This document shows, piece after piece, positions 31,914 through 64,000 of a stretch of 64,000 bases of DNA; position 1 is the stretch's first letter; each line of letters begins with the position of its first letter. A program made the position numbers and the translations under genes. The notes beneath the pieces are model-generated. The model was not told where the DNA came from, ran no database searches, and was given only the letters and a program-made list of their open reading frames with translations. This DNA is from Gautieria morchelliformis (Eukaryota; Basidiomycota; Agaricomycetes; Gomphales; Gomphaceae). The DNA is taken from the NCBI GenBank assembly GCA_015179125.1, contig WHVA01000078.1:124001-188000 (forward strand), read 5' to 3'.

Positions 31914-31918
31914 AACCC

Positions 31919-35169: not shown

Positions 35170-35199
35170 TTCTAGTCTATTAATAGATGGTAGATACAA

Positions 35200-35207
35200 T
35201 ATAAAAG
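35200..35207 (+). promoter_or_regulatory. TATA box downstream of the TGACTCA array
   Basis: TATAAAAG lies about 30 bases after the last TGACTCA. The order upstream sites, CCAAT, TATA is that of a strong RNA polymerase II promoter pointing right. No intact gene follows within 700 bases, so this may be the U3 part of an unrecognised LTR. Confidence 0.6.
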
Positions 35208-35209
35208 GA

Positions 35210-36125
35210 GGCCTTACTGCCACCTTTCATCAGCCAATACATCATCATCTACTATCCACGTACCTCGTGTGACTTGCCAAGCTTGCACAGCTTACTAAGC
35301 TGCTAACCCCAGCTAGGGTTATTACACTTACTTAGTGTATTAATTCTCAGTTAAGTAGTTGCGTTTCTACTTAGCCACCCGGACTAACACTCCAGGTGAA
35401 ATTCTGCAGAGTGAGTCTGACAATCGATTTCCTTGTCAATTAGCTCTCCAATACCCGAGACGAACTGATCAGTGACTTTCCTGTTCAGTGACTTTCACAA
35501 GTCACTTCTTAAACCCTAGTCGCTCGTTTATTGCAGTGCATTGACGTTAATTGGGTCAGTCCACTTACAAACTCTCCTGTGAAGCCATTCCTATCTTTTT
35601 GGAATACTTGGACCCCGATAGTCGTCCTTGAACCTACAGACTTTTAGTTTATTGTTCAGTGCTGCTAAGAAACGTATTGCCTTCCATCCGTATTAACTTG
35701 GACTAGTTTTTACGCGGATTGCAACCAAGGTACAAATATTAAATTATTTCCGGAGTTGTGCTGCAGCATTGTTTAATATTCTTTGAGTTTCGTATACGAC
35801 ACGTTCTGATAGACCAAAGTGTTAGCTCTGACACCAAAGTCTTGAAGGGTTCCAAAACAGAAGGTGATGTGCTGAGGCAGAGGAGTCTCTTTGAGGCGAT
35901 GGCTAGATATCACAAACGGCTCTTAACATTCCTGTGAGCCGCCGAAGGGCTGGTGGAGAAGATGGTGCAGAGGTTGAGGTGTCTGATGGTGGAGGAGTCG
36001 AATGAATTAAAGGGGTTTTTAGCAGAATAAGGGGGGCCTAGGCGATAGTGAGGGGAGGATTAATGAAGTCGAGTCTTTATATGTAATATGAACAGAGGTG
36101 TATTTTCTTGGGTTTCTACGAGGTT
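35210..36125. other. Probable retroelement noncoding sequence
   Basis: Follows the TATA box and may be its transcribed leader. The right part (about 35870-36125) is probably the 3' untranslated end of G1 copy B. No protein is recognised. Confidence 0.35.
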
Positions 36126-39100: not shown

Positions 39101-39254
39101 AACTTGTCCTTCAGTAGGGGGTTTTCGTGAAGGAGTGTAGTCAGAGCTGGTGCGTTGCCTACAGCGTGAAGTGACATTGGTTCGGGGATGGTCGGATGCA
39201 TGTTTAACATGAATGTTTCTTCTTCGCCGAGTTTCATGATTACCTCGAAGGTGG

Positions 39255-39478
39255 TGTTAGTAATTGGGATGATGACATGGCCGAGGCAGAGCCGGCACGC
39301 ACTTAGCCGGAAGTTCGAGAACGCTCTCGACTCCGGGATGCTGGTGCACCGGCATGGCATCGGCACAGCATCAGCTCGAAGGATTAGTAATATAGGAACA
39401 TCGTATTTAGTATATAAGGACAGACGATCTTGTGTAGATCATAGAATAATCAATCTATTATAACTCCTTCGTTCCACA
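39255..39478 (+). repeat. C2 5' LTR
   Basis: 224 bases, TGTTAGTAAT...GTTCCACA. It contains GTATATAAGGACAG, a likely TATA box. It differs from the 3' LTR at 13 sites, all transitions. Confidence 0.92.
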
Positions 39479-42400: not shown

Positions 42401-43030
42401 ACCAGATTTGGCTTTTACCGTACAACACCTAAGTCAATTCACTACTACTTACGGAGCCGAGCACTGGACGGCAATCAAGCACGCACTCAGGTACCTCAAG
42501 GGGTCACGTGACGACGGCATAACCTTCCGACGAGACGCTGGTCTCGACCTCGAAATATTCGTTGACTCGGATTATGCTAATAGAAATGACGCACTGTCTA
42601 TTAGTGGCTATGTAGCTATACTAGGAGGGGGAGCCATCGCATGGAGCTCGAAGAAGCAACGAACGATCACATTATCTACTATGGAGGCCGAATACATGGC
42701 ACTCACCAAGGGCGCCAAGCAATTGATCTGGCTAAGGCGCCTCATCGAGGAGCTAGGAATAGATCAAACACAGCCCACATCACTTCGATCAGACAATCTA
42801 GGCGCTATCACACTATCGCATGACACAATGTACCATGTGCGTACCAAACATATCAATGTCGCATATCACTTCATCCGTGAGAAAGTGGCCTCTCACGAGG
42901 CAACACTTACGTACATACCGACGAAGGTGAACGTAGCGGACATATTTACGAAGGGACTGGACTTACACCAGCATAGGTATTTATTAGGGAAATTAGGATT
43001 TTGTTGAAGGGACTTCTCGCTGAGGGGGAG

Positions 43031-43254
43031 TGCTAGTAATCGGGACGATGACACGGCCGAGGCAGAGCCGGCATGCACTTAGCCAGAAGTTTGAGAACAC
43101 TCTCGACTCCGGGATGCTGGTGCACCGGCACAGCATCGGCACAGCATCAGCTCGAAGGATTAGTAATATAGGAACATCGTATTTAGTATATAAGGACAGA
43201 CGATCTTGTGTAGATCGTAGAATAATTAATCTATTATAACTCCTTTGTTCCACA
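43031..43254 (+). repeat. C2 3' LTR
   Basis: 224 bases, TGCTAGTAAT...GTTCCACA, the partner of 39255-39478. A polypurine tract (GCTGAGGGGGAG) precedes it, as expected for plus-strand priming. Confidence 0.92.
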
Positions 43255-44640
43255 GGCGGCCCCACTGATTAGGCTTATATGTGGGGTTGTCCTTCATGTC
43301 AGGGGCGGATCAGGAGGTGAAGAATGGAATGGGAGGTGGTCATCGGTCAGTGATTCTGTACATGGCATACAGGGGTGAGAATGGCTCGGAACGGGCTCTA
43401 TTTTTCGTCGAATAGGTTCAGCTTCTATTATGTTTTCTTTTGTGGCTGAAAATGGATGGATGAGAGTAGTAGGAAGCGGTTTGGAGGACTCAGAGGAGTG
43501 ATTCTCGATAGGCTTGGTTGAGAGAAGTAATGGTTCGCCATCCATGTCGAACGTCTGTTCGTAACCAGAAAGATTCGGAGTAGGAGTGGGTGAAGAAGTG
43601 AGATCCGGTGGAAGGACCAGGACATAAGAGAGTGGTCCAATCACCGTGTTCGGGACGTAACCCAAGGATGGCAGGGACGAATGCGAACCAGGAACTGGCG
43701 GTGGCGAAGCCATCAAGGCAGTGTGGAGTTTGGGAATACTGTCGAAGATAGCCGGAGGGGAAATCATCGTGCAGGCCATAGCGACTGTCATCCGTGGAAG
43801 TATGGAATCAGTGCCGGAATCAAACGTGATTGAGAGAGAACCCCAATTGATAGTGGGTTTTGCAGAGCGAAGCCACGGAAGCCCAAGAACGATTGCGGCC
43901 GAAGGATGTAACCCTGTGACAAGTAGCAAAATGTCCTGTGAAGAGGAGTCGCTGAAAGTGAGACTAGTATCTAGATCCTGGTGAATGAAACCAGCAGTGG
44001 CTGGCTTCCCGTCGAAAAGGGAGAGAGCAATCGGCGAACAGAGTGATGTACATACGAAACCAGGGCAAGAGGAAAATGAGCTATCAATGAAATTGGAAGT
44101 GCATAGCACCAGAGTTGATGAGAGTAGGGACGGAGTTAGAGAGACTGGGAAGGTGTACATGGATGATAAAGGATGAATTGGAATGGGAGCTAATAGAGGC
44201 GAACAAGCACATGGGTGGTACAGAATAGATAAGGTTGTTATTCGAAGAAACAGAGCAGTTATGTGTAAGAGTTGTTGAGAATGACTCGGAATCCAGTGGG
44301 AGAGAGGGTCCAGGCCTGCCAAGTAGGGCAGGAATCTGGGAAAAAGAGTGGTGCGGGGGAGGGCGACCTGCGAAGGGGTAAGGCTGTCCCGCGAATAAAC
44401 AAGGCTCAGGCCCGCCACGTGGGACAGGAATCTGTGTAAAGGATTGTTGCAGGGGAGGTGTCCCACAAATAGAAGTGGCGCAGGCCTGCCAGGTGGGGCA
44501 GGAGTCTGTGTGAAAGGCTGTGGGGAGGTTGTCCCACGAAGCGGTGAGGTTGTCCCACGAATAGAAGTGGTGTAGGGTGCATGTGAGAGTGACGAGTAGA
44601 TGGGATAATTCTTTGACTGTAGCTGTTAGTTCAATTATAC

Positions 44641-46162
44641 TGTCAAGATTGGTTTTTAGGCGTTAATATCGTGTATTAGTGAACGCAGCAAATTCCCGAA
44701 TAACTTGTGCAAATAAGTATGCCATTCGGCAAATAGGGTGAACCAATAAATGTTCAGAAGATAAGAGGGTTGCCTGAATGGAGCTCGCCCTATCTACAGT
44801 CATAGTGAAATAGCCCATGGCACTTGACAATGTAACGTGCAAGGTGTCATGGAAAGGTTGTCTAAGTAGCTGTTGGGTGAATTTATGCTCCTGCACCAAA
44901 ATCAAGCATAATATATCCAATTTGTTGTGTGGTTTCTCAATTTCTTCTCATTTTGTTCTTGTATCATGCATCCATTTCTCTGGTTATTTTCGAAATTTTC
45001 CACTCACTCCCTGTCTCTCCATTTCATCTTGTTATTTCTATTTTCACAAGTGGCTGCACCCAGCGGAGTCTGAAATGACTTCGACGTGCGAACTCTTGGG
45101 CGCTAAAGGGCCGGGTAGTAGTACATGCACAGTGAAACATTTTCCCCCTCTCTCAGTGACAACTAAATTCACTGAGAGAGGCAAGTAAATTAGTCTAGCA
45201 TTCTTTCGATTTATTAACCTAGAAATCCTCTGTAGTGAATTGTTTTCTAGGTAGTGTACAATATATTTACAGTGACAACTAAATTCACTGAGAGAGTGAA
45301 TTGTTTTCTAGTCTATTCTTTTGAGCAACAAGTCCATACCTACTGCCTATAATTCCTGTCCTCTACAGTAGCGACAATCCTTTTGTCGGTGAAGGCGCTC
45401 CTTCGGAGCCCTTCGCCGACAGCACAGAAAATAGTTCGAAGGCTAAAGTAACGAAGGTGAAGTACGAAAACTCACCAGTGGTGCTTAAGTCCTCGATAGG
45501 AATATTCAGGTGAGGGCTCAAGATGATGATCACAGTGAGGTCAAGTTTGCACAAGATAGACGTATGATAATTGAACTGAGGAATATACATGCAAATGTAG
45601 ACTACTTATATCGAATGCTCATATGATGCTAGCGAATAGGAAAGAGGCCATCTGGAGTCAGGGTTGGATAGTGGTGCGCGGTCCGGATACATAATAGATG
45701 AAATAGACATACAATAGAATGGAAGAGGGGTGCGAACATGAAACGACAGAGAGGAAAGAGGACGAAGGCCCCTATGTATGAAAACATGCCTTGGGACCTG
45801 CATATACACCACCCTGCATGGACTCTTTGTCTGCTGGGTTGATCCCACACAACCTATGGGTAGGATGCCCCACGAATGTGTCCCGGCCATATGAACACCT
45901 AAAGGGGATGGATCGAGAAGGTGATGGGGCCAGTGATGAACCATCACGCTGGGTAAAGGGTGTCAATCGTGTTTTGATGGCATGCCTGCTGGCGAATGAT
46001 GTGAGCAGCGAATGGTCATTCGGTGAATGTGGCGAAGGGCAAGTGGAACGAACATAGTGGGGGAGTGGTTGGAGGGTATGGCGAACTCAGGTGAAGATGC
46101 AAGAGGGATGATGAGAGGGGGAACAGAGACAGTGGGGTAAGGGAAATATACAGGTGATGACA
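44641..46162 (-). repeat. G1 copy B 5' LTR with a nested solo LTR
   Basis: Runs TGTCAAGATTGG... to ...GGTGATGACA in plus orientation, about 1.0 kb once the nested 497-base C1 LTR and one duplicate are set aside. Bordered on the left by GTTCAATTATAC, the start of the internal region. Confidence 0.88.
44871..45367 (+). repeat. Solo C1-type LTR inside a G1 LTR
   Basis: TGTTGGGTG...CCTCTACA in plus orientation, which is the C1 LTR reversed relative to 27184-27660. Flanked by the target duplication GTAGC (44866-44870 and 45368-45372). It includes an extra local duplication around ACAACTAAATTCACTGAGAG (near 45160 and 45280). A solo LTR is the usual product of recombination between the two LTRs of an element. 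Confidence 0.9.
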
Positions 46163-46790
46163 TAACCCAAACCCCATAGTTCATCCCAAATGGGACCTCA
46201 CATCCTCTTGGGCTGAATACTTCATAGTTGACCTTGACCAGCTTCATGCTACCCTAAAAGAGCAAATTAAATTTACTCAATGTATCAGGTGTTGGCTGAT
46301 GTGTGTCATGCTCCTGCTCCTGAGTTCATGTTTGGATCCTTTGCGTTTGTAAAAGCGCAGTTCTTCCAGACAACCTGGCCCTTGAGGAAGCTGGCCGAGA
46401 AGTACCTTAGGTCGCTTCAAGATCATAGGCCAGGCCAGAACCTGAGCTTAGGCTTCTGGACAGCCTTTGGGCAGTCCACCTGGTCTTCCATGTCTCCATG
46501 CTTGAACCTGCAATCCCAAACACACTTCTGAATCAGGTTCAGTCTCCACCACCTCCAGTTGAGATTGTTGGTGAGACAGAGTATGAGATTTCTGAGATCC
46601 TAGATTCAAAGATTCACCATGCTGAAGACCTTGTAACCTCCTGTACCTTGTCTGTTGGGCTGGTTATGAAGGTACTGATGAGGAGATGTCATGGGTCCTC
46701 ACAACTAAGCTCAGCCATGTGGTCGAGTTCGTGACTGATTTCCACTCGGCCTACCCTGCCCTAGACCCCAAGTTTGAACCCAAGCTTTGG
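46163..46790 (+). mobile_element. G2 Ty3/gypsy fragment: integrase tail and chromodomain
   Basis: Plus-strand remnant. Around 46320-46440 it encodes FVKAQFFQTTWPLRKLAEKY, the integrase C-terminal region, and at 46495-46610 SMLEPAIPNT, then PPPPVEIVGETEYEISEIL, the start of a chromodomain. It is similar in arrangement to the end of G4 pol. Old and broken. Confidence 0.75.
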
Positions 46791-48671: not shown

Positions 48672-49671
48672 TGTCAAGATTGGTTTTTAGGTGTTAATAT
48701 CGTGTATTCGTGAACACAGCGAATGCCCGAATAACTTGTGCGAATAAGTATGCCGTTCAGCGAATAGATGAACCAATGAATGTTCACAAGGTAGGAGGGT
48801 TGCCTGAACGGGGCTCACCTATCTACAGTCGTAGTAAAATAGCCCGTGGCACTTGACGATGTAACATGCAAGGTCTCATGGAAGGGCTGTCTAAGTTTCG
48901 ACAATCCCTTCGCCAACAGCACAGAAAATGGTTCGAAGGCTAAGGTAATGAAGATGAAGTATGAGAACTCACCAGTGATGCCTAAGTCCTCTGCTAGTTG
49001 AAGATAGAAATCTCCAAGAGAAGGCTTAAGACAATGACCACAGCGAGGTCAAATTTGCACAAGATGAACGACGTATGATAATTGAACTGGGGAATATACA
49101 TGCGAATGTAAACTACTTATATCGATTGCTCGTAAGGTATCAGCGAATACGAAAGAGGCCGTCGTGAGTTAGGGCCGGATAGGGGTGTGCAGTCATGATA
49201 CTAGGTAGATGGAATAAACATACAATAGAGTGAGGGGAGAATGCAAACATGAAACGACGGAGAGTAAAGGGAGCGAAGGCACTTATGGACAAAACCATGT
49301 CTTGGGACACGCATACATGCTACCCTGCACGGGCTCTTCGTTTACTGGGTTGATCCTGCACGGCCTATGGAAGGGACGTCCTGCGATCACACTTTGGCCA
49401 TACGAACACCCAATGGGGTTGGATTAAGAAGATGATGGGGTTAATGATGAACCATCATGCCAGGTGAATGGTATCGATCATATTCGATGGCGTGCCTGCT
49501 GACGAAATGCGCGAGCAGCGAATAGCGGTTCGGAGAATGGGGCGAACAGTGGGTAGGGTGGACGTAGAGGGGAAGTGGTCGGTAGGTGCGGCAAACTCTG
49601 GCGAAGATGCTAGGGAGTGACGAGGGGGAACATAGAGGTAGCATGGTAGGAGAAATAAACCGGTCATGACA
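48672..49671 (-). repeat. Solo G1 LTR
   Basis: Exactly 1000 bases, TGTCAAGATTGG...GGTCATGACA in plus orientation, flanked by the target duplication CTTGG (48667-48671 and 49672-49676). No internal region is attached. Confidence 0.93.
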
Positions 49672-49743
49672 CTTGGCTCTGATAATGCATGACCATTCTG
49701 GGGGATCCTGTGACATGTGACACAGAGCATTGGTCAAACATGG

Positions 49744-50246
49744 TGTTACGTATCGAGATTTCCGCTAAGTTGGAACTGGAAAGGACAGCGGCTTCAACTT
49801 GTAGGTTGTGCCCCCAATGAACTATCATCCTAAGTATTTCAGAAATGAGTCGGAAGTCGGAAAGTACTGAACTAGAGGTTGGTCGGAACTTGAGTCGGAA
49901 CTGAGGCGAAAGGCGGAAGACAGAAGGCGGAAGATGGAAGGCGGAAGATGGAAGGCGGAAGACGGAAGGCGGGGAGAGACTGAGATCTTGCTAGACTCGC
50001 TGTACTAAGAACAGGAGATGGAGCGAAGGAAATAAAGTATCGAAGGCGATTATCTGATTGCAGAATAACAGACATACATGATAGGCTTTTATACAAAGAG
50101 CTGAGACAACAGGTAATGGGGTAGTACTATGCAAATTCCGGGGGAAGCGGAAGTCAAGTAGACAATGCGTGGGAACTAACTAATTGGGAACAATGGGACT
50201 ACAAGGGGGGTTCAGGGTAAGGTAGAACAATGGCAAAGAATAAGGG
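49744..50246 (-). repeat. G4 3' LTR (shorter copy)
   Basis: Matches 56130-57199 except that the 14-base minisatellite is represented by only about five degenerate units (49908-49972). Similarity stops at about 50246, just upstream of the antisense gene. The last 200 bases seen in the other LTR are not found here. Confidence 0.85.
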
Positions 50247-50311
50247 GTTGGCAACGCGTCCGGGTTTAAAAAATAGGCTGAGGAACAAACACGTCTTCTT
50301 CCCAATCCAAC

Positions 50312-51519
50312 ATGAGTGCTCCAGTCGATTTCTCCAAGATGACGAGTGCCAAGATGAAACAGCATTTCGCTGACATGCTCGCACAAAAGGAACTGGCCGA
50401 AAAACGCGAGGCCAAGGAAGCTGCGTGGAAAGAAAAGGAACGTCGGGAGAAAGAGCGGAAGGAACAGGAGAGGAAGGACCGTGAGCGCCGTGAGGAGGAG
50501 GAGCACGTCCGTGAAGAGAAACGGAAACGGAACGTGGCATGGAAGGCTGCTGAGGACAAGGCTGCCGCGGAGAAGGCTGCTGCGGAGAAGGCAGAAAAGG
50601 AACAGGTGAGTCGGGAATGTCCGGCGGAAATGTCCTTGTATTAACCGAAAAATTCTTCCAGAAAATTGTTCAGGACAAGTCAGAGTCAGATTCGGAAGGT
50701 TCGGCGGAAAGTACACCGTCTCCCGAAGGAAAAGGGAAACAAAAGGAAATCGCTCCTTCGGTGAACCTTGTGGCGGAACGGAAACGGCGGGCAGATGAAT
50801 TCCAGAAGGCTCGAAAGAGCAAGTTAAATCGGATGCTGGAGTTGCGTGAGCTAGGACCGGAAAATCCCGCGACTAAGAAGCGGAAAACGCGGGATGACAA
50901 TGAAGAGGAGAAGGCTCCTTGCGACCCATGCGAGTCTAAGGGGCTGGATTGCACGTGGTCGAGTAATCCACAGGAAACGTCGTGCGATCAGTGTCCTGAC
51001 AAGAAAAAATGCTGTGTCGTGGACGGGTGCGCTTCGAGGGTGGAGCGAAAGAAACAGAAGGTTGAGGAGTCGAATCCGAAGTCGGAACCGGAAGCGAGCG
51101 GAGGGAGGTCCGAGGAATCGTTTCCAGTGACCGGAAAATCGGGACAGGCGGTTTTGAACCGATTTACAATGTCTTATCCCCTCCTTGATATTGCCGGGTC
51201 GCTGAGGGCCATGCGGAAACAGCAACGCAAAATCCGGGACATCATGATCGATATGGCAGAGGTTCAGCAGCATCAGGTTCTGTCAATTCAGAACCAGATG
51301 ACTGTCATGTCTACAGTCCTGCAGCAGTTGATGCGGGAAATGCGGTGGCGGAATGATCTGGTCCGGGACCAAATGGATGTGCGGCTGCGGGAGCAGGGAA
51401 TTGGGGCGGAAGCGGGTCCGAGCGGGGGGGGCGGAAACGAGGGAAAGGGTGGAAACGGAGTTGGTGAGTGTCGAGGTAGGAGATGCGGAAAAAGAGCCGG
51501 AAGCGGAAGAAGAAGTTGA
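50312..51519 (+). CDS. Antisense accessory gene of G4: coiled coil, Zn2Cys6-like cluster
   Basis: Not recognised as any standard gypsy part. Two coding blocks, 50312-50605 and 50662-51519, are separated by 56 bases with GTGAGT...CCAG ends, a typical short intron here. The first block is a highly charged Lys/Glu/Arg helix (ADMLAQKELAEKREAKEAAW). The second has an acidic Ser-rich part, a basic KKRKTRDD stretch, then a cysteine cluster at 50920-51030 of form C-x2-C-x6-C-x10-C-x2-C-x6-C (CDPCESKGLDC, then CDQCPDKKKCC), a second basic patch (VERKKQKV), and a Gln/Met-rich coiled coil (LSIQNQMTVMSTVLQQLMRE). That order matches fungal zinc-cluster DNA-binding proteins, although the spacer lacks their usual RxRK basic motif. 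It starts about 65 bases inside the LTR edge and converges on pol. It looks whole. Confidence 0.75.
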
Positions 51520-51673
51520 GGCAGAGACAATGAGGGAGGAGTAGGGGTCTAAGAGACTTGTAACATAATTTCTTGAAGTGTCGGAAATATCATAACGGAA
51601 TTTAATCGGAATTGTGTTGTGACTTGAGAGCTGTAAGAATGAATGAGGGTATCGGAAGTGAAATCGGAAATGA
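51520..51673. other. Convergent gap between the accessory gene and pol
   Basis: 154 bases hold the 3' ends of two oppositely directed genes of the same element. CGGAA occurs several times. Confidence 0.45.
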
Positions 51674-52262
51674 CTAGGGCGCGGAAATGGGGCCAGGCTT
51701 ATCGGGATATGACTTGTGAAAATCAGAGATGAGGTCAGAGGCGTGATCGAGTTCCATGGCGGAAATCCAGGAAGTCTCTTCGTCGGTGTTTTCATAACCT
51801 GCCCACTTGACTAGGTACTGGAGTTGGCAGCGGTATCGTCTGTCAAGCTTGGAGTTGAGAATTTCTGAGATCTCATATTCCGGTTCTCCGTCGATGACGA
51901 CTGGCGGAGGCGGAGGTTGTATTCGGAACTGCGGGCTCAAGCATGGAGACATGGAATACCAGGTGTACTGCGCGCATATTGTCAGGAAGTCTGAGGGTGA
52001 AAGAACGACTGCCGGCCTTAGCGATGATCTCGTAAGGGCCAAGGTATTTCTCAGAGAGCTTCTTTGAGGGGCGAGTGGTGTGGAAGTTTTCAGCTTTGAC
52101 AAAGACTTTGTCGCCTATCTCGAATGCCGGTTGCGGAAGTCGTTTCCGATCGGCGGAAGTCTGGTATCTCTTCTGGGGGCGGAAATGTTCTCTCGGAGGT
52201 GTCGGTGAAGGTCGTCGAGTTCCACAACGAAATCTCGGGCTCTGGCAGAGGCGAGGTTGCAT
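51674..52262 (-). CDS. G4 integrase end and chromodomain (fossil part)
   Basis: Encodes KVFVKAENFHTTRPSKKL, LVFHVSMLEPAVPNT and the chromodomain YEISEILNSKL, LQYLVKWAGYENTDEETSW. Chromodomains on gypsy integrases are known to direct insertion to marked chromatin. Confidence 0.85.
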
Positions 52263-54493
52263 TCAGGGTGGATGGCGAGATTCGGGTGGTAGCCCTTGTT
52301 GGCATAAAAGGGTGAAATTCCAGTGGTAGCGGAAGGCGCGTTGTTGTAGGCAAATTCCGCGAGTGGAAGGAGGTCGGACCAATTGCTGTGTTGGTAGTTG
52401 CAATAGACGCGGAGATACTGCTCAAGGGTCTGATTAGTACGTTCCGTCTGTCCGTCTCCTTCGGGGTGATAACCAGAAGTGAAGTGGAGTTTCATGTCGA
52501 GAGCCTTGCCGAGTGTGCGGAAAAAGGATGACACGAATTCTGATCCACGGTCGGAAGTGACATGGGAAGGGATTCCATGCTTGGAAAAGACGTGGAGCAC
52601 GAAGAGTTGTGCGAGTTGGGCGGAAGTGATGGTGTCGTAGGTCAGAATAAAGATGGACTGCTTTGTAAGGCGGTCAACGATCACTAGAATGGTATCATAG
52701 CCAGATGACTTAGGAAGTTTCTCAATGAAATCCATGGATATCGAATTCCACGGTTGTTCCGGGATCGGAAGTTGCTTCAAGAGGCCGTAGGGTTTGTGAC
52801 GTTGGGGCTTGGCGCGCATACAGGTGGTGCATGACTTGCAGTAGTCTTGGACCATCGTGCGGAGAAGAGGCCAAGTGTAGGTACGTCGGATTATGTCGAG
52901 GGTTTTGTTCTGGCCTTGGTGTCCTGAGAGCGGATGATCGTGGCTTTGCTGGAGTACGCGAAGTCGTAGATCATTGGTATCCGGAACGTAAATCCGGGAC
53001 TTGTACCGGAGAAATCCGTCGGAATCAAGGGACCATCCAGGACTGGTGGGGTCATCGAGGTGGGTTGCGGAGATGGGGTTGGAACGGAGTGCGGAACGGA
53101 TGTCGGAATGGAGAGACTTGGTGTCCATAATGATTGAGGCGCGGAGTAGCGGAAACTGCAATGCTGTGGCACGCAAGGACGATGCCAGTTGCTCAGTGGA
53201 AAATACTGGGCGGAAATTGTGCGGATTAACGCTGGCATAGTTGCTACTTCCCTCTTTTGGGTAGACGTCCCAACGTCTAGTGAGTGCGTCGGGTTTTGCT
53301 CCAAGCTTTCCGGGGCGGAAGCGGATCACCATGTTGAACTGTGAGAGATATTCAGACCAGCGGACTTGACGGCGAGTCAAAATCTTAGTAGTCGCGAAAT
53401 ACTCAAGGTTCTTATGATCTGTTACAACGTCGATAAGGTCGGAAAATACGTCATTCATGAATCGCTGAAAAGCGGCGGGAGCATTGGTTAGACCGAAAGG
53501 CATGACAACCCACTCAAAAGCACCGTAGTGGGTGTGGAAAGTGGTTTTCCACTCGTCACCTTCCCGGATGCGGACAAGGTGATAAGCGTGCCGGAGGTCA
53601 ATTTTGATGTAGATCTTTGCCCTGCGGGGAGTGTTGAGTAAGTTGGAAATGCGCGGAAGTGGATATTTGTCCTTCTTAGTGAGGGCGTTGAGTCCGCGGA
53701 AATCGACGCAGAGGCGGAGAGATCCATCCTTCTTCTTGACGAAAAGGACCGGAGCGCCGTGCAGAGACAGCGAAGGGCGGATGAAGCCCATGTTGAGATG
53801 TTCATCGACGAACTCGCGGAGAGTTAGGAGTTCACTTTGCGAAAGGGAGTAGATCGGTCCAAGGGGCAGAGATGCTCCTTCTTCCAAATCTATCTTCAAA
53901 TCGTAAGGTCGATGTTCAGCTGGTTTATCGGCCTTGGCCTTGTTGAACACGTCCGGGAAGTCACGATATTCTTCCAGAACTGAGCTCATGTCGACCGGAG
54001 CGGAAGTCGAGGCGGAACGAGCCTTGACTGAAGCCGAATCGGAAAGGTGAAGCTGGAAAACGGTCGTATCCTCTTGCCATTGCAACACGTGGAAAGCGGT
54101 GGCGGAGACGAGCGCAATTCGAGGAGCTTCGAGGGGCAGAGATGCTAAAGCGGGACCGGAGTGCGGAACTGAATCCATGAGCGGAGTTGCAGAAGAGGCC
54201 TGAACCATCTTTGCGGACGACATCGGAATAGACGGAAGTTGATCCGGGGTACGGAACTGTATTTGACCCAATGTCCAGTTAATCGACGGATTATATCGGG
54301 TGAGCCAATTGTGTCCTAGTACAACGGAACAGCTAGCATCTAGCGGAGTAACGTAAAATGTAACTTCATGGTTGTCCCCAGTAGCGAAACGGATAGACAG
54401 GTCCACGACTTGGGAAATTGCCATGTTGGAAGACCCGTTGAAAAGGCGGAGCGGAATAGTCGGAATGTTGCGGGTCGGAAGTTTATGTTTCAA
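52115..54493 (-). CDS. G4 pol region (fossil part)
   Basis: A 792-codon frame with aspartic-protease-like flank (SVVLGHNWLTRYNPSINW), reverse transcriptase (VLFVKKKDGSLRLCVDFRGL, MPFGLTNAPAAFQRFMNDVF), part of RNase H (DHKNLEYFATTK), the zinc-binding integrase end (HDHPLSGHQGQNKT, CTTCMRAKPQRHK) and the integrase core (SMDFIEKLPKSSGYDTILVI, SDRGSEFVS). Confidence 0.9.
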   Translation of the reverse strand: MKHKLPTRNIPTIPLRLFNGSSNMAISQVVDLSIRFATGDNHEVTFYVTPLDASCSVVLGHNWLTRYNPSINWTLGQIQFRTPDQLPSIPMSSAKMVQASSATPLMDSVPHSGPALASLPLEAPRIALVSATAFHVLQWQEDTTVFQLHLSDSASVKARSASTSAPVDMSSVLEEYRDFPDVFNKAKADKPAEHRPYDLKIDLEEGASLPLGPIYSLSQSELLTLREFVDEHLNMGFIRPSLSLHGAPVLFVKKKDGSLRLCVDFRGLNALTKKDKYPLPRISNLLNTPRRAKIYIKIDLRHAYHLVRIREGDEWKTTFHTHYGAFEWVVMPFGLTNAPAAFQRFMNDVFSDLIDVVTDHKNLEYFATTKILTRRQVRWSEYLSQFNMVIRFRPGKLGAKPDALTRRWDVYPKEGSSNYASVNPHNFRPVFSTEQLASSLRATALQFPLLRASIIMDTKSLHSDIRSALRSNPISATHLDDPTSPGWSLDSDGFLRYKSRIYVPDTNDLRLRVLQQSHDHPLSGHQGQNKTLDIIRRTYTWPLLRTMVQDYCKSCTTCMRAKPQRHKPYGLLKQLPIPEQPWNSISMDFIEKLPKSSGYDTILVIVDRLTKQSIFILTYDTITSAQLAQLFVLHVFSKHGIPSHVTSDRGSEFVSSFFRTLGKALDMKLHFTSGYHPEGDGQTERTNQTLEQYLRVYCNYQHSNWSDLLPLAEFAYNNAPSATTGISPFYANKGYHPNLAIHPECNLASARARDFVVELDDLHRHLRENISAPRRDTRLPPIGNDFRNRHSR

Positions 54494-54677
54494 AACAAAG
54501 TCGGAATCGAGGAAACAATCAATGCTGTGAACGGGGGTGCGGAAATGGTGTCGGAAGTGAGCGGAACAGAGAGGGAGTCGGAGGACGAAAGAGCGGATGC
54601 ATTGAGTTTAACCTCGTTTGTCGCACGAATGGGGTCAACACAGCCCTCAGCTCGTGCGGAGGCCGGAGGACTGCTGA

Positions 54678-56096
54678 CTATTTTTTTGCATCCGTAGCGG
54701 GAGCCGCTTCGGATTTCTCTTCCACCTTCGCTGCGCGGCCCTTGGCCTTTGCAGCGGAAGCGGAAGCTCGGGTGCAATCGCGAGCGACGTGACCGCCTTT
54801 GCCGCAGAAAAGGCAAAGGTTGTTGTCCATGCGACGCTGGCGTTCTACAGGGGTTAGTTTTCCGTCCTTCCCAAGTTTGTCGGAAAGGTCCGGAGTACTT
54901 TTCCGGGCGTTGGTGTTGGAACCAGAGGCCTGGTTGTTGCGAGGGGTGGAGTTGTTGTTCCAGTTGCCGGAGTTGGAGCCGGAACTGTTGTTGTTGCTGT
55001 TGTTTCCGGAGTTGTTGTTTCCGGAATTAGTCTTCTTCTTGTCTTTGTCAGACTTCTTGTCGGAAGACTTGTCGTTCTTGCTCTGGGTGGAAGTTTCGCG
55101 AGCGATCTCGGAATGTCTTTCCCAGTAGCGCGAATCGATAGATTGGGCAAGGTTGCGGAGGTCGGTAAGGGTGGCGGGTTTTCCGACGCAGGCAATTTCA
55201 TCCTTGATCCGGGATGGCAGGCCCATGTAAAACTGGTGTCGGAGTGTGGCTTCTCCCCATTGGACTGGAGGAGCGAGCTGCTGGAATGTGACGATATATT
55301 TAGCTATCTTATGAGTGTCTTTCATACGAAGCTTATCGAGTTCATTTTCCGCATCGGCTTCCATATCAAATGGTCCAAAGTTGCTGCGGAGTTCGGAAAC
55401 GAAGTTGTGGTAATTGTCGGCCCAGTCGACGAGAGCGAACGGATCCATGAGGGCGGGTTCGAAGTAGTCGAGAGCCGTGCCTCGGAGATAGGAAAGGGCG
55501 TAATTGGCCTTTCGTTCGTCATCGGGAAAGGCGTCAGGACAATCACGGAAGTTGAGTTGAAGCTGGACCAGAAATGGCTGGAGCTTCTTGGGGTCGGAAC
55601 CGTCGAACTGATCTGGTTCGCGGACCTTTGTCTTGGGGCGTGGTGGTGCTTGGGCCGGGCGCTGAAGTTGTCCGGCTAGCATGGCGATGTCTTGTGCAAG
55701 ATCCGGAACTGGCGCGGGCGGAACTGGGTTGGCGGGAATTGGAGGTGGAATTGGAGGTGGAGGACCGCCTGGGGGACTGCCGGGTGGGCCGCCATGAGGG
55801 CCGCCTGGAGGTGGTCCTGGTGGAGGTGGTGGTGGTGGAGCTGGGCGTCGGAATGACGCTGCTGTTTGTTCGCTGCTGCTGCTCGTCGAATTCCCATCAT
55901 AGTCGGGATTGTCGTCGGGATTAGCGTCGGGAACTTCTTCGAATCGTTGGGGAATAGCATCGGAGAGCTCATCATCGGCACGAGAGCTGCCGCAGGGTTC
56001 CGCGTGCCTTGGTGCTGTGGATCTAAGACTGCCAAAATAAGAGAGAGCTTCGACAGCTCCTGCTCGAGCTGAAGTAGCTGTGGTACGAGGAGGCAT
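54678..56096 (-). CDS. G4 gag (fossil part, looks whole)
   Basis: 472 codons. A proline/glycine-rich N-terminal section (residues 85-135, PPPPPPPGPPPGGP) is followed by a gag domain (KLQPFLVQLQLNFRDCPDAF, then LRGTALDYFEP), an Asn/Ser-rich linker (NSGNNNSGNNSNNN), a single zinc knuckle CLFCGKGGHVARDC near residue 437 and an Ala/Lys-rich tail. The start codon is only 33 bases from the LTR edge. Confidence 0.9.
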   Translation of the reverse strand: MPPRTTATSARAGAVEALSYFGSLRSTAPRHAEPCGSSRADDELSDAIPQRFEEVPDANPDDNPDYDGNSTSSSSEQTAASFRRPAPPPPPPPGPPPGGPHGGPPGSPPGGPPPPIPPPIPANPVPPAPVPDLAQDIAMLAGQLQRPAQAPPRPKTKVREPDQFDGSDPKKLQPFLVQLQLNFRDCPDAFPDDERKANYALSYLRGTALDYFEPALMDPFALVDWADNYHNFVSELRSNFGPFDMEADAENELDKLRMKDTHKIAKYIVTFQQLAPPVQWGEATLRHQFYMGLPSRIKDEIACVGKPATLTDLRNLAQSIDSRYWERHSEIARETSTQSKNDKSSDKKSDKDKKKTNSGNNNSGNNSNNNSSGSNSGNWNNNSTPRNNQASGSNTNARKSTPDLSDKLGKDGKLTPVERQRRMDNNLCLFCGKGGHVARDCTRASASAAKAKGRAAKVEEKSEAAPATDAKK

Positions 56097-56129
56097 AGCG
56101 ATAGTTATCGGGTGGGAATCAGATAATAC

Positions 56130-57397
56130 TGTTATGTATCGAGATTTCCGCTAAGTCGGAACTGGAAAGGACAGCGGCTTCAACTTGTAGGTTGCGCCCC
56201 CAATGAACTATCGTCCTAAGTATTTCGGAAATGAGACGGAAGTCGGAAGATGGAAGTCGGAAGACGGAAGGCGGAAGACGGAAGGCGGAAGACGGAAGGC
56301 GGAAGACGGAAGGAAGGCGGAAGACGGAAGGCGGAAGACGGAAGGCGGAAGACGGAAGGCGGAAGACGGAAGGCGGAAGACGGAAGGCGGAAGACGGAAG
56401 GCGGAAGACGGAAGGCGGAAGACGGAAGGCGGAAGACGGAAGGCGGAAGACGGAAGGCGGAAGACGGAAGGCGGAAGACGGAAGGCGGAAGACGGAAGGC
56501 GGAAGACGGAAGGCGGAAGACGGAAGGCGGAAGACGGAAGGCGGAAGACGGAAGGCGGAAGACGGAAGGCGGAAGACGGAAGGCGGAAGACGGAAGGCGG
56601 AAGACGGAAGGCGGAAGACGGAAGGCGGAAGACGGAAGGCGGAAGACGGAAGGCGGAAGACGGAAGGCGGAAGACGGAAGGCGGAAGACGGAAGGCGGAA
56701 GACGGAAGGCGGAAGACGGAAGGCGGAAGACGGAAGGCGGAAGACGGAAGGCGGAAGACGGAAGGCGGAAGACGGAAGGCGGAAGACGGAAGGCGGAAGA
56801 CGGAAGGCGGAAGACGGAAGGCGGAAGACGGAAGGCGGAAGACGGAAGGCGGAAGACGGAAGGCGGAAGACGGAAGGCGGAAGACGGAAGGCGGAAGACG
56901 GAAGGCGGAAGAGGAAGGCGGAGAGAGACTGAGATCTTGCTAGACTCGCTGTACTAAGAACAGGAGATGGAGCGAAGGAAATAAAGTATCGAAGGCGATT
57001 ATCTGATTGCAGAATAACAGACATACATGATAGGCTTTTATACAAAGAGCTGAGACAACAGGTAATGGGGTAGTACTAAGCAAATTCCGGGGGAAGCGGA
57101 AGTCAAGTAGACAATGCGTGGGAACTAACTAATTGGGAACAATGGGACTACAAGGGGGGTTCAGGGTAAGGTAGAACAATGGCAAAGAACAAGGGGTCAG
57201 GAAAACATGTCTGACAACGAAACACAAGGAGGGCCGGACGTACGATCTTGATGAACGGTGAGGTGGGTCCGGTGGGTCCGAGTAATAGAGTTGAAAGAAC
57301 AAGGGAATAGAACAATGGGCAGAATGTCGGAAATATCGGAGGGGCGGAAAGTGTTGCGGAACTGAAGGTCGGAAGTCGGAAATGAATGGGCGTAACA
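56130..57397 (-). repeat. G4 5' LTR (longer copy)
   Basis: 1268 bases, TGTTATGTATCGAG...GGGCGTAACA. Its extra length over the other LTR comes mainly from the 14-base minisatellite and from 200 bases at its far end that the other copy lacks. Confidence 0.9.
56262..56920. repeat. 14-base minisatellite, about 46 copies
   Basis: Near-perfect head-to-tail copies of CGGAAGGCGGAAGA inside the G4 5' LTR, with one short interruption near 56310. CGG triplets recur every 8 and 6 bases on the plus strand. Since 14 is not a multiple of three, all three frames read the same 14-residue peptide repeat; none is a real protein. Confidence 0.97.
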
Positions 57398-57402
57398 CAT
57401 GG

Positions 57403-58771: not shown

Positions 58772-60021
58772 TGTCATGATGTGTTTATTTCCTATACCCA
58801 GTAGCTCTGTCCTCCCATTCTTCACTCCACCTCTATGTTCGCTCCGATCGCCTTTCGCCGAGTTCGCCGATCAGTCTTCGCTGTTCGCGTCATTCGCCAT
58901 AGCCATGCCATCAAAGCATGATCAACGTCCTTTAACCAGCTTAGTGGTTCATCACTGGCCCTATCACCTCCTCGGCTCAACCCCCTTTCGATGTTCCTAT
59001 GGTCGGATTGTCACGACTCGTGTATTTCTTGCACTCAGCTTTCCCTGTTTCCCCTTTCACCACTCCTCCTCCATGTTCACTCGGCTTCGCCCCTCCCTTC
59101 GACCATGCCTCCTCTGTGTCCTCTCCATTCACCCTTTGCCACATTCGCTGAACGACCATTCGCCAGCAGGCATGCTATCAAACATGATCAACATCCTCTA
59201 CCTGGCGTGATGGTTCATCACTTGCCCCATTATCTTCCCAATGCAACCCCTTTAGGTGTTCATATGGCCAGGACCCATTCGCGGAATCTCCTAACCATAG
59301 ATTGTGTGGGATCAGCCCAGCAGATGAAGAGTCTGTGCAGGGTAACATATATGCAGGTCTCAAGGTGTGTTTTCGTACATAGGTCCCTTCATCATCTTTT
59401 CCCCCGTCATTTCACATTTGCACTCCTCCTTCTTTCTATTGTATACGTGTTTCATCTATTCTGTATCCTGACTGTGCACCCTTATCCAACCCTGACCCAT
59501 GACGGCCTCTTTCCCATTCACCAATATCATATGAGCATTCGATATAAGTAGTCTACAGTCGCATGTATATTCCCCAGTTCAATTATCATATGTCCATCTT
59601 GCGCAAAACTTGACCCCACTGTGACTATCATCTTGAGCCCTCTCCTGTAGATTTCCATCTTCAACCAGAGGAAGACTTAAGCACCACTGGTGAGTTTCAT
59701 ACTTCACCTCCATTACCTTAGCCTTCAAACTATTATCTGCGCTGTCGGCGAAGGGCTCCGAAGGAGCGCCTTTGCCGGTGAAAGGATTGTTGATACTTGA
59801 ACAACCTTTCCATGACACCTTGCATGTTACATCATCAAGTGCCACAGGCAGTTTCACTATGACTGTAGATAGGGCCACCCCCGTTCGGGCAGCCCTCTTA
59901 TCTTCTGAACATTTGTTGGTTCACCTTATTTTCTGAACGGCATATCTCTTCACACAAGTTATTCGGGCATTTGCTGTGTTCACTAATACACGATATTAAC
60001 GCCTAAAAACCAATCTTGACA
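58772..60021 (+). repeat. Composite G1 LTR with target duplication
   Basis: Flanked by ACAGT on both sides (58767-58771 and 60022-60026). It consists of the first 237 bases of one LTR (58772-59008, TGTCATGATG start) followed by a complete second LTR (59009-60021, TGTCACGACTCG...CAATCTTGACA). One LTR inserted into another and later recombination would give this form. Confidence 0.85.
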
Positions 60022-60027
60022 ACAGTG

Positions 60028-60640
60028 AGGTTACTGTGCCTGGTTGTACTATTCATGAGAAAGAGGGCAGGGGGATGCAATTCTATCATTGAGGTTTACC
60101 CTAAAACCTAAGTAATTGAGCGATAGCTGGTGAGCGGATGATGTACTTCTTGCCTGGCTGCTGTGGGTGGTGGATTGCTGCCCCTGTGGGCATGGGTGAG
60201 GCCCTCCTCACGGTTGATTCCAATATGTCAGATGATGTTCTGGGCAGCCCGATAATGCACCAGCAGCAGGCCAAAATCGAGGGTGTATAGTTGGGGCTGG
60301 ATAATTGCATTCAAGCCCTTGCAAAGTGTGGACTATCTCCCATGACTGAGGGTCTTTGCTAGAGGGGATGAATCACATATTAGTCTCAGGATACTTATGC
60401 TGAATTTGTCGAGTGTGCTCCTCTAACTGAGGGCAATCACAGCCCCAGGTCGCATGCCCTATGTCATCACAGTTGGTGCACCTGTAGATCTTGGGGTCTG
60501 TCACTCTGCATTCCACTGTCCTATGGCCTGAGTTGCCACATGTGCTGCATGTGTCAATGGGTTGAGGACATTGCGCAGCCATATGTGAGACCCCTAGCTT
60601 TTGACACTTTAGACATCTTCTGGCTCCTAGTAGCATCTTC
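60028..60640 (-). pseudogene. LINE ORF1 end with zinc knuckles
   Basis: Minus-strand frame 60373-60636 has three CCHC/CCHC-like knuckles: CLKCQKLGVSHMAAQC, CSTCGNSGHRTVEC and CTNCDDIGHATWGC, followed by DCPQLEEHTRQIQHKYPETNM. This is the ORF1 type of fungal Tad1-like LINEs. The frame is lost afterwards (60101-60310 lies in another frame), so it is decayed. The composite LTR separates it from the reverse transcriptase piece. Confidence 0.78.
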
Positions 60641-60645
60641 CTAAC

Positions 60646-61632
60646 TGTAGTCCGGTGGATTTAGGCTTTAATATCACATATTAGTGAACATAGCAAATGC
60701 CCGAACAGCTTGTGCAATGACGTATGTAGTTCGGCAAACAATGTAAAGCAAATAAAGGTTTATGAGGTAAGGGGGCTACTCGAACAGAGCTTTCCCTGTC
60801 TACAGTCAAAGCAAAATAGCCCATGACACTTGACGATGTAACATACAAGGTTTCACGGAATGGTCATCTAGTAGTAACAATCTTTTCGCTGGCGAAGGCG
60901 CTCCTTCAGAGCCCTTTGCCAACAGCACCGACAATGGTTTGAAGACTAAAGTAGTGATGGCGAAGTATGGAAACTCACCAGTGGTGCTAAAGCCCTGCTC
61001 TGGTTTAAGAGAGTAGTCTATAGAAGAGGGCTTAAGACAATGGTCACAGTGTGGTCAAGTTTTTCACAAGATAGATGTATGATAATTGAACTGCAGAATA
61101 TACATGCAAATGTAAGCTACTTAGACCGAATGCTCATATGATATCAGTGAATAGGAAAGAGGCCGTTGTGAGTCAGGGTTGGATAGGGGTGCACAGTCAG
61201 GATACAAATAGATGAAACACATAAACAATAGAACCAAGGAGGAGTGTGAACATGGAATGATGCGGAGGAAAGAGGACAAAGGTACCTATGTAAGAAAACA
61301 CGCCTTCAGACCTGCATACATGTTACCCTGCATGGACTCTTGGTCTGCTGGGTCGATCCCACATGATCTACAGGTAGGATGTCCCGCAAATGCATTCCGG
61401 CATAGGAACACTGAAAGGGGGTTGAATCGGGAAGGTGATGGGGCCAGTGATGAACCATCACACCAGGTAAAGGATGTCGATCGTGTTTGATGGTGTGCCT
61501 ACTGGTGAATGATGTGAATAGCGAATGGACATTCGGTGAATTCAGCGAAGGGCGAACAGAGCGAACATAGAGATGGAGGGATGAAAAGGGAAAATGGGGG
61601 TAACTTGATACAAGAATAAATGGGTCATGACA
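60646..61632 (-). repeat. G1 LTR, diverged copy
   Basis: Aligns in reverse with the G1 LTR from a degraded left end (TTTAGGCTTTAATATCACAT) to GGGTCATGACA at 61632. It is more diverged than the other copies and no target duplication is visible. Confidence 0.8.
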
Positions 61633-63604
61633 TCCAGGTGCCAGTGATTAATTTTATGATTAATATTAGATTAAAATGTTTTTGATAAAAGACTCCTATT
61701 GCTTAGCGGCTAAACGGTCTATGAACTGATCAGTGGCCCTGCAATTGACAAGTGCAGGTCCTGACTTGACTTCTGCAGTGTCTGTTGTCTGGACTCTGGA
61801 TCTCGACCTTAATGACCAAAGACTTGGGGCCAGGGGTGGCAGCAACAAAATAACATTTTGGGAGGCATCTCTCCCAAGGGCAGATGTGGAGTGGGTGGGT
61901 TGTTGGAATTGGCTTTTGTGTGACTTCATCTGGTGGGTCTGCACAAAGTGAGGGGAGTGGGGTTTCTCATTCTCTAGATCAAACCCATTTCTCCATTGAC
62001 ACGGCCATGTGACCACCATCCATCAGTGACGGACGCGTCCCACAGAGCTTAGTCAGCACAAAGCGACGGGATGAATATAGCGGTAAAAAAGGACTATGTA
62101 CAGCAGAACCAACTGACTATGTGGAAGTTGCAACCTGCAATCCCAGTGTTCAATGTGGATGGAAGCCCTAATGAGGCAGGGTCCATCATGGAAATCATAG
62201 GCACAATTCTCTGCTACAATGGATATATGGAATGCACTTCCTTTGCAGTCACCAGCCTGGGGAAGCAAGACATCATCCTTGGATTTACCTGGCTGCAGGA
62301 GCACAACCCAGAGATCAACTGGCAGACTTGGAAAGTGCTGATGAGTCAATGCCCGACCAAGTGTCACATGTGCAGGTCGGAAGTGCAGAAGGAGCATCAG
62401 GAGCAGCAGAAGACCAAACAGCTCATACAGATATGTCATTCTGGCCCTCAACCACTGCTTTCAGAAGAGGATTCCGAAGCAGAATACGAACCAGCTCCCA
62501 CTCCTGATTCCAATTCTGCTTCCAACTCTGATGTCATCCAACTTGGCCCAGAAGACACTTTGGCGGAAGGGCAGTGTTTTCTGTATGTAAACCTTCCGCT
62601 GGAAGCAGAACACATCTGCGCCACCAGAAACATTTCGCAACGTCTAGCAGAAGCCTCCAGAAAGCATGATAAAGTGGAGGTGGAGATTCCAGAGTACCTG
62701 TGGGAGTTCGAGGATGTCTTTGCCAAGGAGTTGTTTGATACCCTACCTCCACGGAAGCTGTGGGACCATGCCATCGAGTTGGAGCCTGGGTCAAAGCCCA
62801 CCAACTGTAAGGTCTACCCACTGTCACCTAGGGAGCAGGTAGAGCTCGATGCATTCCTTGCAGAGAACCACCATACCAGGAGGATCCGCCCTCCAACTCA
62901 CACATGGCATCTCGGGTGTTCTTCATAAAGAAGAAGGATGGCTCACTCAGACTCATGTAAGATTACTGGGCCTTGAATGTGATCATGATCAAGAATCGAT
63001 ACACCAGTCCACTCATTTCTGAACTGATCACACAACTCCGCGGTGCAAGGTACTTCACTAAGCTGGATGTCCACTGAGGTTTCAACACAATGTTCAGATC
63101 CGTGAGGGAGACAAATGGAAGGCTGCATTCTGCACCAACCAAGGACTCTTCAAGTCCTAGGTCATGTTCTTTGGCCTTGCCAACAGTCTTGCCACATTCC
63201 AGATGATGATGAACAACATTTTCTGGGACATGATAGTGGAAGGGGTTGTCTGTGTCTACCTTGATGAATATTCATCTTCACAAAGACACTGACGGAACAT
63301 CAGGAGATTGTGCGGAGAGTGCTAGAACGGCTCTGGGAGTACAACCTGTGTCTCAAGCTGGAAAAGTGTGAATTTGAGCAGATGTGGATAGAGTATCTTG
63401 GGGTGATCATGTCAGAAGGAATGGTGGAGATGGACCCAGTCAAGGATTCTGGTGTGTCAGAATGGCCTACACCACAGAACCAGAAAGAAGTGCAGTCCTG
63501 TGTTGGGTTTGTCAATTTCTACTGGCGGCTCATTAAGGATTTCTCCTGCCATGTCTGTGCCCTCTTCAACCTCACCGGACAGCTGGTCTTGCTGTGCTGT
63601 GAGT
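61633..63604 (+). mobile_element. G3 Ty3/gypsy remnant
   Basis: Plus-strand fossil. 62071-62928 covers a protease-like region (DIILGFTWLQEHNPEINWQT) and the start of reverse transcriptase (YLWEFEDVFAKELFDTLPPRK). 62900-63600 continues reverse transcriptase (FIKKKDGSLRLM, LGVIMSEGMVEMDPVK, CVGFVNFYWRLIKDFS). Old, with many breaks, and cut off at about 63604 by a G4 LTR piece. Confidence 0.82.
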
Positions 63605-63738
63605 CAAGTCCGGTGGGTCTGAGTAATAGAGTTGAAAGAAGAAAGGATATAACAAGGGGTGGGTTTGTCAGAATTATCGGAATGTCGGAAAGGAGGAGGA
63701 ACTGAGTGTCTGAAGTCAGAAATGCATGGTTGTAACAC
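63605..63738 (-). repeat. G4 LTR end fragment
   Basis: GTCCGGTGGGTCTGAGTAAT through GGTTGTAACACA matches the far end of the G4 5' LTR (57262-57397), the very part missing from the G4 3' LTR. Confidence 0.75.
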
Positions 63739-64000
63739 ATATCCAGTTCATCGAGTTCATTCTTGCAGACAGTTGAGTTGCTAAGCTGCTTGCACAATTG
63801 ATACAGAACACTTTGCCTGCACATTGTCAGAATAACAATTTTGAGTAAAACCAAATGCCACATACTTTATCTTAAGACCAAACTTTGCCTCAAGTCATGC
63901 ATGCTGGCCAGGTGCAGGCAAACCTCAGAGCTTGTCCCCATACTGATTTTTACCTGTGATGTTGGGCATTGGCGGGTGCACTGGATCACGGATGCATGCC
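63739..64000. other. Unassigned window end
   Basis: No recognisable feature in the last 260 bases. Confidence 0.35.

Follow-up and report, generated by a model that had tools for sequence, protein, structure and literature searches.

A predicted antisense gene for a putative zinc-cluster protein and a family-specific CGGAA word in a chromodomain gypsy retrotransposon of Gautieria morchelliformis

Introduction

VANDAL transposons of Arabidopsis encode VANC proteins that read short motifs of their own elements. Passages of PMC5735166 describe the motifs of VANC21 as uniformly oriented, dense and family-specific, and passages of PMC5735166 and PMC10398659 indicate that the VANC proteins of VANDAL21 and VANDAL6 go with different short words. 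Here we analyze a 64-kb stretch of the Gautieria morchelliformis genome (contig WHVA01000078.1 of assembly GCA_015179125.1, positions 124,001 to 188,000; hereafter the window, numbered from its first nucleotide) that contains a Ty3/gypsy retrotransposon, G4, with a predicted antisense gene for a zinc-cluster-like protein and with the word CGGAA at high density. G4 shares with VANDAL/VANC a short family-specific motif in one orientation, its high density and its tandem repeats, and in both systems different families have different motifs, here TTCCG (the reverse complement of CGGAA) in G4 and TTCGC in a second gypsy family, B. VANDAL is a DNA transposon whereas G4 is a retrotransposon, and the element-encoded reader is known in VANDAL/VANC but putative in G4. 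According to the same passages, motif binding and methylation loss have been demonstrated for VANC, whereas G4 is known from sequence alone.

The position of the antisense gene has a counterpart in the plant Ty3/gypsy element Retand, whose TRP28 open reading frame (ORF) is likewise antisense between pol and the 3' long terminal repeat (LTR). The passages of PMC11963269 on Retand give TRP28 a putative DNA-binding domain and a proposed regulatory role, report tandem repeats for roughly half of all Retand elements and mention no element-wide motif. Unlike G4, Retand is a plant non-chromovirus with a TRP28 domain and with its repeats between pol and the 3' LTR. HBZ of HTLV-1 is also an antisense gene; passages of PMC10186651 report its expression from the 3' LTR, a spliced form and a nuclear bZIP-type product. 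It differs from the G4 gene in encoding a bZIP protein, in belonging to a retrovirus and in acting through host factors such as CREB-2 (same passages). In fungal gypsy elements, the legend of Figure 3 in PMC2864245 lists an 'add. ORF' of unknown function, and section 5 of that paper leaves its orientation, domain and motif unstated. Among the matches listed from the open-licence PMC literature, none in its available passages describes an antisense zinc-cluster gene, or a motif spread over the whole element, for a retrotransposon of fungi, and the terms 'antisense' and 'zinc' are absent from the available passages of PMC3411680 (Laccaria elements) and PMC3248453 (fungal LTR elements).

The predicted G4 protein has cluster spacing, basic flanks and a downstream helix in common with the fungal Zn2Cys6 (Gal4-type) factors, and differs from them in scoring under the Pfam cut-off and in having its Lys-rich half second. 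Zn2Cys6 proteins, whose consensus spacing is CX2CX6CX5-12CX2CX6-8C, favour CGG triplets, and mushroom genomes commonly encode cysteine-cluster proteins of a similar kind. We tentatively propose that the antisense protein may be an element-encoded reader of the element's own CGGAA motif, serving regulation or anti-silencing, a reading that we consider possible, short of probable.

Results

G4 is a chromodomain gypsy element with a predicted antisense gene

The LTR pair and the Pfam domains identify G4 as a minus-strand LTR retrotransposon of the chromodomain Ty3/gypsy type. Its termini, TGTTAC..GTAACA by inspection, are of the TG..CA type, and a 5-base target duplication, CATGG, flanks it at 49739-49743 and 57398-57402. 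From 5' to 3' the order is 5' LTR, gag, pol, integrase SH3, chromodomain, antisense gene and 3' LTR, so that the antisense gene follows the chromodomain and precedes the 3' LTR, on the strand opposite to gag and pol. The features are as follows.

49744-57397, minus strand: G4 element (TG..CA ends, CATGG duplication, Pfam matches for gag, reverse transcriptase, integrase, SH3 and chromodomain)
56130-57397, minus strand: 5' LTR, by repeat pairing with the left end
56234-56922, plus strand: main array, 49 units of 14 bp, AGACGGAAGGCGGA, with 95 CGGAA on the plus strand
54678-56105, minus strand: gag (Retrotrans_gag and Ty3_capsid matches), with 13 CGGAA on the plus strand
52265-54607, minus strand: pol with partial reverse transcriptase, end of RNase H and integrase (Pfam), with 30 CGGAA on the plus strand
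51873-52262, minus strand: integrase C-terminal SH3 of the Tf2-1 type (Pfam), in a frame different from pol
51674-52114, minus strand: chromodomain frame (Chromo match), after the stop in the pol frame
51520-51673, plus strand: non-coding gap from the antisense gene to the chromodomain frame, 5 CGGAA in 154 nt
50312-50605, plus strand: antisense exon 1, Lys/Glu-rich (ORF; codon models)
50606-50661, plus strand: predicted phase-0 intron of 56 nt, GTGAGT..CAG
50662-51519, plus strand: antisense exon 2, with basic patches, cysteine cluster and long helix (ORF, pattern and model)
50920-51015, plus strand: CX2CX6CX10CX2CX6C cluster, of Zn2Cys6 spacing with the halves apparently swapped
51145-51393, plus strand: predicted helix of 83 residues, a candidate dimerisation segment (AlphaFold2, single sequence)
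49744-50248, minus strand: 3' LTR remnant, in which the counterpart of 57198-57397 is lost on the side of the antisense gene
49910-49972, plus strand: short array, 4.5 units of 14 bp

Pfam matches above the cut-off on the minus strand were Retrotrans_gag (40.4 bits), RVT_1 (72.7), Integrase_H2C2 (70.6), rve (32.8, cut-off 32.6) and SH3_Tf2-1 (71.3), and the Chromo match reached 33.5 bits with a cut-off of 25.1. G4 has the gag, reverse transcriptase (RT), integrase and chromodomain between LTRs that define a chromovirus, its RT being partial. The SH3 domain lies in a frame different from both pol and the chromodomain, and a stop precedes the chromodomain. Outside the arrays the two LTRs are 99% identical over 285 nt and 95% over 119 nt, therefore the insertion is not very old. 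The best match of 57198-57397, the segment lost from the 3' LTR, is 34 nt at 49832-49863, with the rest shorter and at E values of at least 0.04. No other copy of G4 in the window was found by blastn and tblastn, which gave only a fragment of an LTR end and weak matches to pol. The fragment, at 63587-63740, matches the outer LTR end of G4 with about 77% identity and adjoins gypsy-like sequence; it holds two CGGAA, the corresponding stretch of G4 five.

A preliminary description of the window had placed a gene besides gag and pol on the opposite strand of this element, and such a gene model was recovered: the ORF starts with an ATG at 50312, and the predicted intron joins exon 1 in phase to an open frame ending at 51519, so that the gene is apparently spliced. 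Read in another plus-strand frame, the end of the ORF (51460-51543) gives a Glu-rich tail that follows a G run. ORFs of such length appeared in any of the six frames in 57 of 3000 first-order simulations, which makes length alone weak evidence, and the codon models are mixed, the annotated frame being the best of the three plus-strand frames in all three models and the best of all six only with the copia model. Both results would be expected if the ORF were no gene, a G/A-rich strand giving long frames and the cysteines arising by chance. We regard this explanation as very improbable: canonical intron signals link the two open frames, only about 3e-5 such six-cysteine clusters are expected in the region, and the pattern occurs once in the six frames of the window. 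The cluster is the strongest sign of coding in the predicted antisense ORF.

Database searches gave the antisense protein no confirmed relative in the collections covered. In IMG/VR, exon 2 matched eight stretches by pattern with none confirmed, G4 pol matched no stretch, and two degenerate gypsy RT patterns gave no match either. Among prokaryote genomes, exon 2 yielded 35 stretches and one relative by tblastn, on a bacterial contig (L003); this match, with 29% identity over query residues 108-185 and a stop soon after, was read as chance. Neither antisense exon matched TRP28 (PF04195) at E values up to 10, and a PDB sequence search with exon 2 returned three chains at E up to 10, none of them a zinc-cluster protein.

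The antisense protein is predicted to carry a Zn2Cys6-like cluster and a long helix

The cluster reads CDPCESKGLDC-x10-CDQCPDKKKCC, fits the Zn2Cys6 (PF00172) spacing and has basic patches beside it. The PF00172 profile gave no match with the whole of exon 2, nor with the second half of the cluster alone, the sixth of the slices submitted. Judged from spacing and profile together, the cluster looks Zn2Cys6-like and is not assigned as a member of PF00172. Downstream, AlphaFold2 predicted a helix with block means of pLDDT of 93-98 over about 60 residues and lower values at both ends. Because its heptad pattern is not clearly above that of shuffled sequences (reached in 986 of 5000 shuffles for the core and in 208 of 5000 for the helix as a whole), we grade a coiled coil in the predicted protein as plausible. 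Of the zinc cluster and coiled coil in the preliminary description, the spacing and the basic patches thus hold, while the coiled coil is reduced to a predicted helix with weak heptads.

CGGAA is concentrated on one strand of G4

The plus strand of the window holds 234 CGGAA and 55 TTCCG. G4 contains 187 of the CGGAA and 17 of the TTCCG, so the element is indeed packed with the word as had been described, and the other 56 kb contain 47 CGGAA, with a density of 0.8/kb in the left flank and 1.2/kb in the right. The large CGG repeat array that had been noticed in one LTR was also found, as the 49-unit main array. In the internal region (50249-56129) the strand ratio of CGGAA is 74:13. Densities per kb are 9.1 in gag, 12.8 in pol, 10.2 in exon 1 and 18.6 in exon 2; outside the arrays the densest stretches are non-coding, with 32.5/kb at 51520-51673 and 24.1/kb at 49744-49909. 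Three LTR parts outside the arrays have 12.6 to 24.1 CGGAA/kb. The word is absent from 50249-50311, from the leader and from the gap separating gag and pol, all three of them short. Two sites lie 12 bp apart in six cases, and spacings of 15 bp or less occur 18 times where 9.1 are expected (7/5000); codon phase may explain these, because most are multiples of three. An extended motif, CGGAANTG, is present at 17 of the 74 sites inside and 0 of the 47 outside, a tentative result since the motif was picked post hoc.

Such words could also lack any function and have been made by a mutational or copying bias, through slippage of a heptad minisatellite, template switching or strand-biased editing. 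The plus strand is G-rich (0.335 G, 0.197 C), and CGGAAGN heptad arrays are present in two IMG/VR contigs as well (L001, 7805-7838; L002, 10340-10373), so they can arise elsewhere; no gypsy gene was seen by eye among the ORFs of L001. Against an origin by bias, the dispersed sites in G4 mostly lack the flanks of the array unit, and we consider this origin quite unlikely, also in view of the shuffling tests below.

Protein coding does not account for the word

Two null models were applied to the coding sequences. In the plain null, synonymous codons are shuffled with protein and codon usage preserved; the strict null also holds codon positions 1 and 2 and the dinucleotides at codon junctions fixed. 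Under the plain null, gag and pol together contain 43 TTCCG where 13.9 are expected (z 10.2), rank 1 of the 1024 five-letter words, and the words ranking next mostly overlap TTCCG. Under the strict null, the expectation rises to 24.5, the count was reached in 0 of 1000 shuffles, and TTCCG again ranks first. By gene, strict values are 30 vs 16.4 for pol (0/3000) and 13 vs 7.9 for gag (18/3000). The antisense exons have the word on the same DNA strand, with 16 occurrences vs 8.8 in the plain null (2/3000) and 11.4 in the strict null (15/3000), where it ranks third. Coding does not account for CGGAA in G4. The antisense exons use the other coding strand and still keep CGGAA on the strand where gag and pol have it; the word is a property of the element and not of one protein. 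The strict null already fixes codon usage and junction dinucleotides, which speaks against a bias as the source of the words.

The word points the same way with respect to the genomic RNA in genes of both strands, which would also fit a role in RNA, in which UUCCG repeats on the sense transcript serve packaging, Gag binding or the shape of the genomic RNA. The G4 gag has zinc-knuckle matches (PF14787, 24.1 bits; PF00098, 17.1 bits), both under the cut-off, that would suit this role. However, both LTR parts outside the array carry the word as well (19.2 and 12.6/kb), and the reverse orientation is itself mildly enriched in gag and pol (11 vs 6.5, 10/1000, strict null), which suits DNA better. 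We hold an RNA role to be unlikely.

A second gypsy family has a different word in its LTRs and coding DNA

Another gypsy family in the window, B, has LTRs of about 1 kb, represented by seven diverged copies or sizeable pieces of 321 to 1031 nt; two shorter LTR pieces (near 24680-25005 and 58823-59010) were excluded from the LTR counts. The family (at least seven LTR copies or pieces) occupies the following positions.

23508-26020
33051-33371
44641-46168
48672-49690
59009-61578

An ORF adjoins the LTR twice, at 26223-27185 (protease match just above the cut-off) and 43297-44625 (no Pfam match), the two stretches being 84% alike over 1087 nt; they are counted as gag copies 1 and 2. The pol at 36357-38636 probably belongs to the second copy, with a copia element between this pol and the ORF. 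Two copia elements, at 27179-32397 and 39254-43256, are apparently inserted in family-B copies, and their LTRs are 97.7% and 94.3% alike. The stretch at 34862-35169, which lies between the pol of family B and a piece of LTR, holds three tandem units of 103 bp that are rich in TGACTCA, and TGACT is strongly over-represented there.

In the pooled family-B LTRs the top word is TTCGC, a sense-strand word with 47 occurrences vs 7 of its reverse complement. TTCGC ranks first in gag copy 1, third in gag copy 2 and second in pol under the plain shuffle, and sixth, second and second under the strict one. As a cross-check, the LTR of each family nominated its top word, and only this word was tested in the coding DNA of the same family; the procedure is mechanical but not blind, both words being already known in coding DNA beforehand. 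The G4 LTR nominates TTCCG with the array included or removed. In family B, TTCGC occurs 8 times vs 2.7 in gag copy 1 (strict, 8 vs 4.2, 14/3000) and 17 times vs 5.2 in gag copy 2 with pol (strict, 17 vs 9.2, 0/3000). The swapped tests were negative, with TTCGC not enriched in G4 gag and pol (7 vs 8.7) and TTCCG not enriched in family-B gag copy 2 and pol (5 vs 3.1, 588/3000; strict, 630/3000). The possibility, raised earlier, that CGGAA might be equally enriched in a related element without the antisense gene is thus not borne out in family B. The LTR-nominated words of the two copia families are not enriched in their coding DNA either (6 vs 5.1 and 0 vs 0.9). The two words that differ between families, the negative cross-tests and the copia LTR words argue further against a mutational bias; in its favour, the coding DNA of the first copia element (28092-31961) exceeds even the strict null for AGAAG (31 vs 15.0 plain; 31 vs 21.2 strict, 0/1000), a word not in the top three of that element's LTR. 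TTCGC is retained in family-B LTRs at 0.385 of 244 comparisons vs 0.261 of 4309 for other words with one CpG; retention over all words is 0.377 of 29916, several CpG words are kept better than TTCGC and the comparisons are not independent, so the support is weak.

A word shared by LTR and coding DNA that differs between two families is what is expected of a self-recognition signal, and is hard to obtain from composition or codon use. The analogy with VANDAL, suggested in the preliminary description for G4, is strengthened by this second family with its own word. The reader, however, might come from the host. LTR elements commonly recruit host factors, and a host Zn2Cys6 activator or the silencing machinery could read a functional motif while the antisense gene does something else; family B has the same kind of word with no visible zinc gene. 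A host activator would need its sites in the LTR and not in gag, pol and the antisense exons too, and readers encoded by the elements more easily explain why two families of one genome differ in their words. A host reader seems to us rather unlikely.

Elsewhere in the window, a 336-bp unit is repeated 3.9 times at 2942-4254 in the left flank.

Discussion

We propose, tentatively, that the chromovirus G4 carries an accessory gene in antisense orientation, whose putative product is a nuclear Zn2Cys6-like DNA-binding protein. This protein would read CGGAA, which is gathered mainly on one strand in the LTRs, the non-coding gap and the coding sequence. Many weak sites in the same orientation would bring about family-specific recruitment, and copies bearing the word would be recognized in trans. 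The outcome may be control of LTR transcription or, as with VANC in VANDAL elements, shielding of the element DNA against silencing. For the antisense gene, its expression and splicing, the binding of its product to zinc and to DNA, the specificity for CGGAA and the function are all predictions from sequence.

Several observations weigh against an element-encoded reader. Concerning the protein, blastn and tblastn found no second copy of it in the window, AlphaFold2 left the cluster unmodelled from the single sequence, and PF00172 scored 14.4-17.7 bits in five slices of the cluster with a cut-off of 21; the Zn2Cys6 identity proposed earlier therefore stands in its spacing and falls short in its profile score. 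The PF00172 positions aligned, 7-36 or 16-36, map to the first half of the G4 cluster, a register taken from the match ranges. The Lys-rich half is the first in Gal4 and Lac9 and the second in G4 (ESKGLD in the first half, PDKKKC in the second). From these ranges and the place of the Lys-rich half, the two halves therefore look swapped in G4. Concerning the element, G4 is a defective copy whose RT stops before YxDD and runs into the end of RNase H (the G4 RT has no catalytic YxDD, and YLDD is present in the other gypsy pol of the window), and the truncation of the 3' LTR adjoins the antisense gene. Concerning the word, the LTR part at 49973-50248 has just 3.6 CGGAA/kb, TTCCG ranks only seventh in gag alone in the strict test (5/1000), and exon 1 (3 vs 1.8, 431/2000), the SH3 frame (4 vs 2.0, 185/2000) and the chromodomain frame (2 vs 1.2, 639/2000) are each too short on their own and not significant. 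The words of VANDAL21 are mainly non-coding in the passages describing them, whereas those of G4 also lie in gag, pol and the antisense exons. To these points belong the copia word AGAAG and two features of family B. In family-B pol, TTCGC is frequent both ways round (13 and 11), which at the same time suits a signal in DNA better than one in RNA. In addition, no zinc gene is visible in family B within 33371-36357 although the family has its own word, which weakens the idea that each word is strictly paired with one zinc gene.

A broader version of the element-encoded reader would hold that each fungal chromovirus has a private word spread over its LTRs, its non-coding and its coding DNA, and that a rapidly evolving zinc-cluster protein encoded antisense reads it; we consider this generalization doubtful. 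The subject bears on how fungal retrotransposons evade methylation-based silencing. CGGAA and TTCGC each contain a CpG, and passages of PMC5974365 give CG as the preferred methylated context in two Pleurotus mushrooms; if this context applied here, the words could be linked to mushroom methylation. A 2025 survey, in the passages available (PMC12730594), finds TET/JBP dioxygenases carried by fungal DNA transposons and by no retrotransposon, so that a different anti-methylation route would fit for retrotransposons. If the antisense protein does read the word, it would give retrotransposons such a sequence-specific route, and setting the cluster sequence of each family against its private word would make the co-evolution of element and reader testable. 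G4 would then represent the retrotransposon equivalent of VANDAL/VANC self-recognition, with even its coding sequence bent to hold binding sites.

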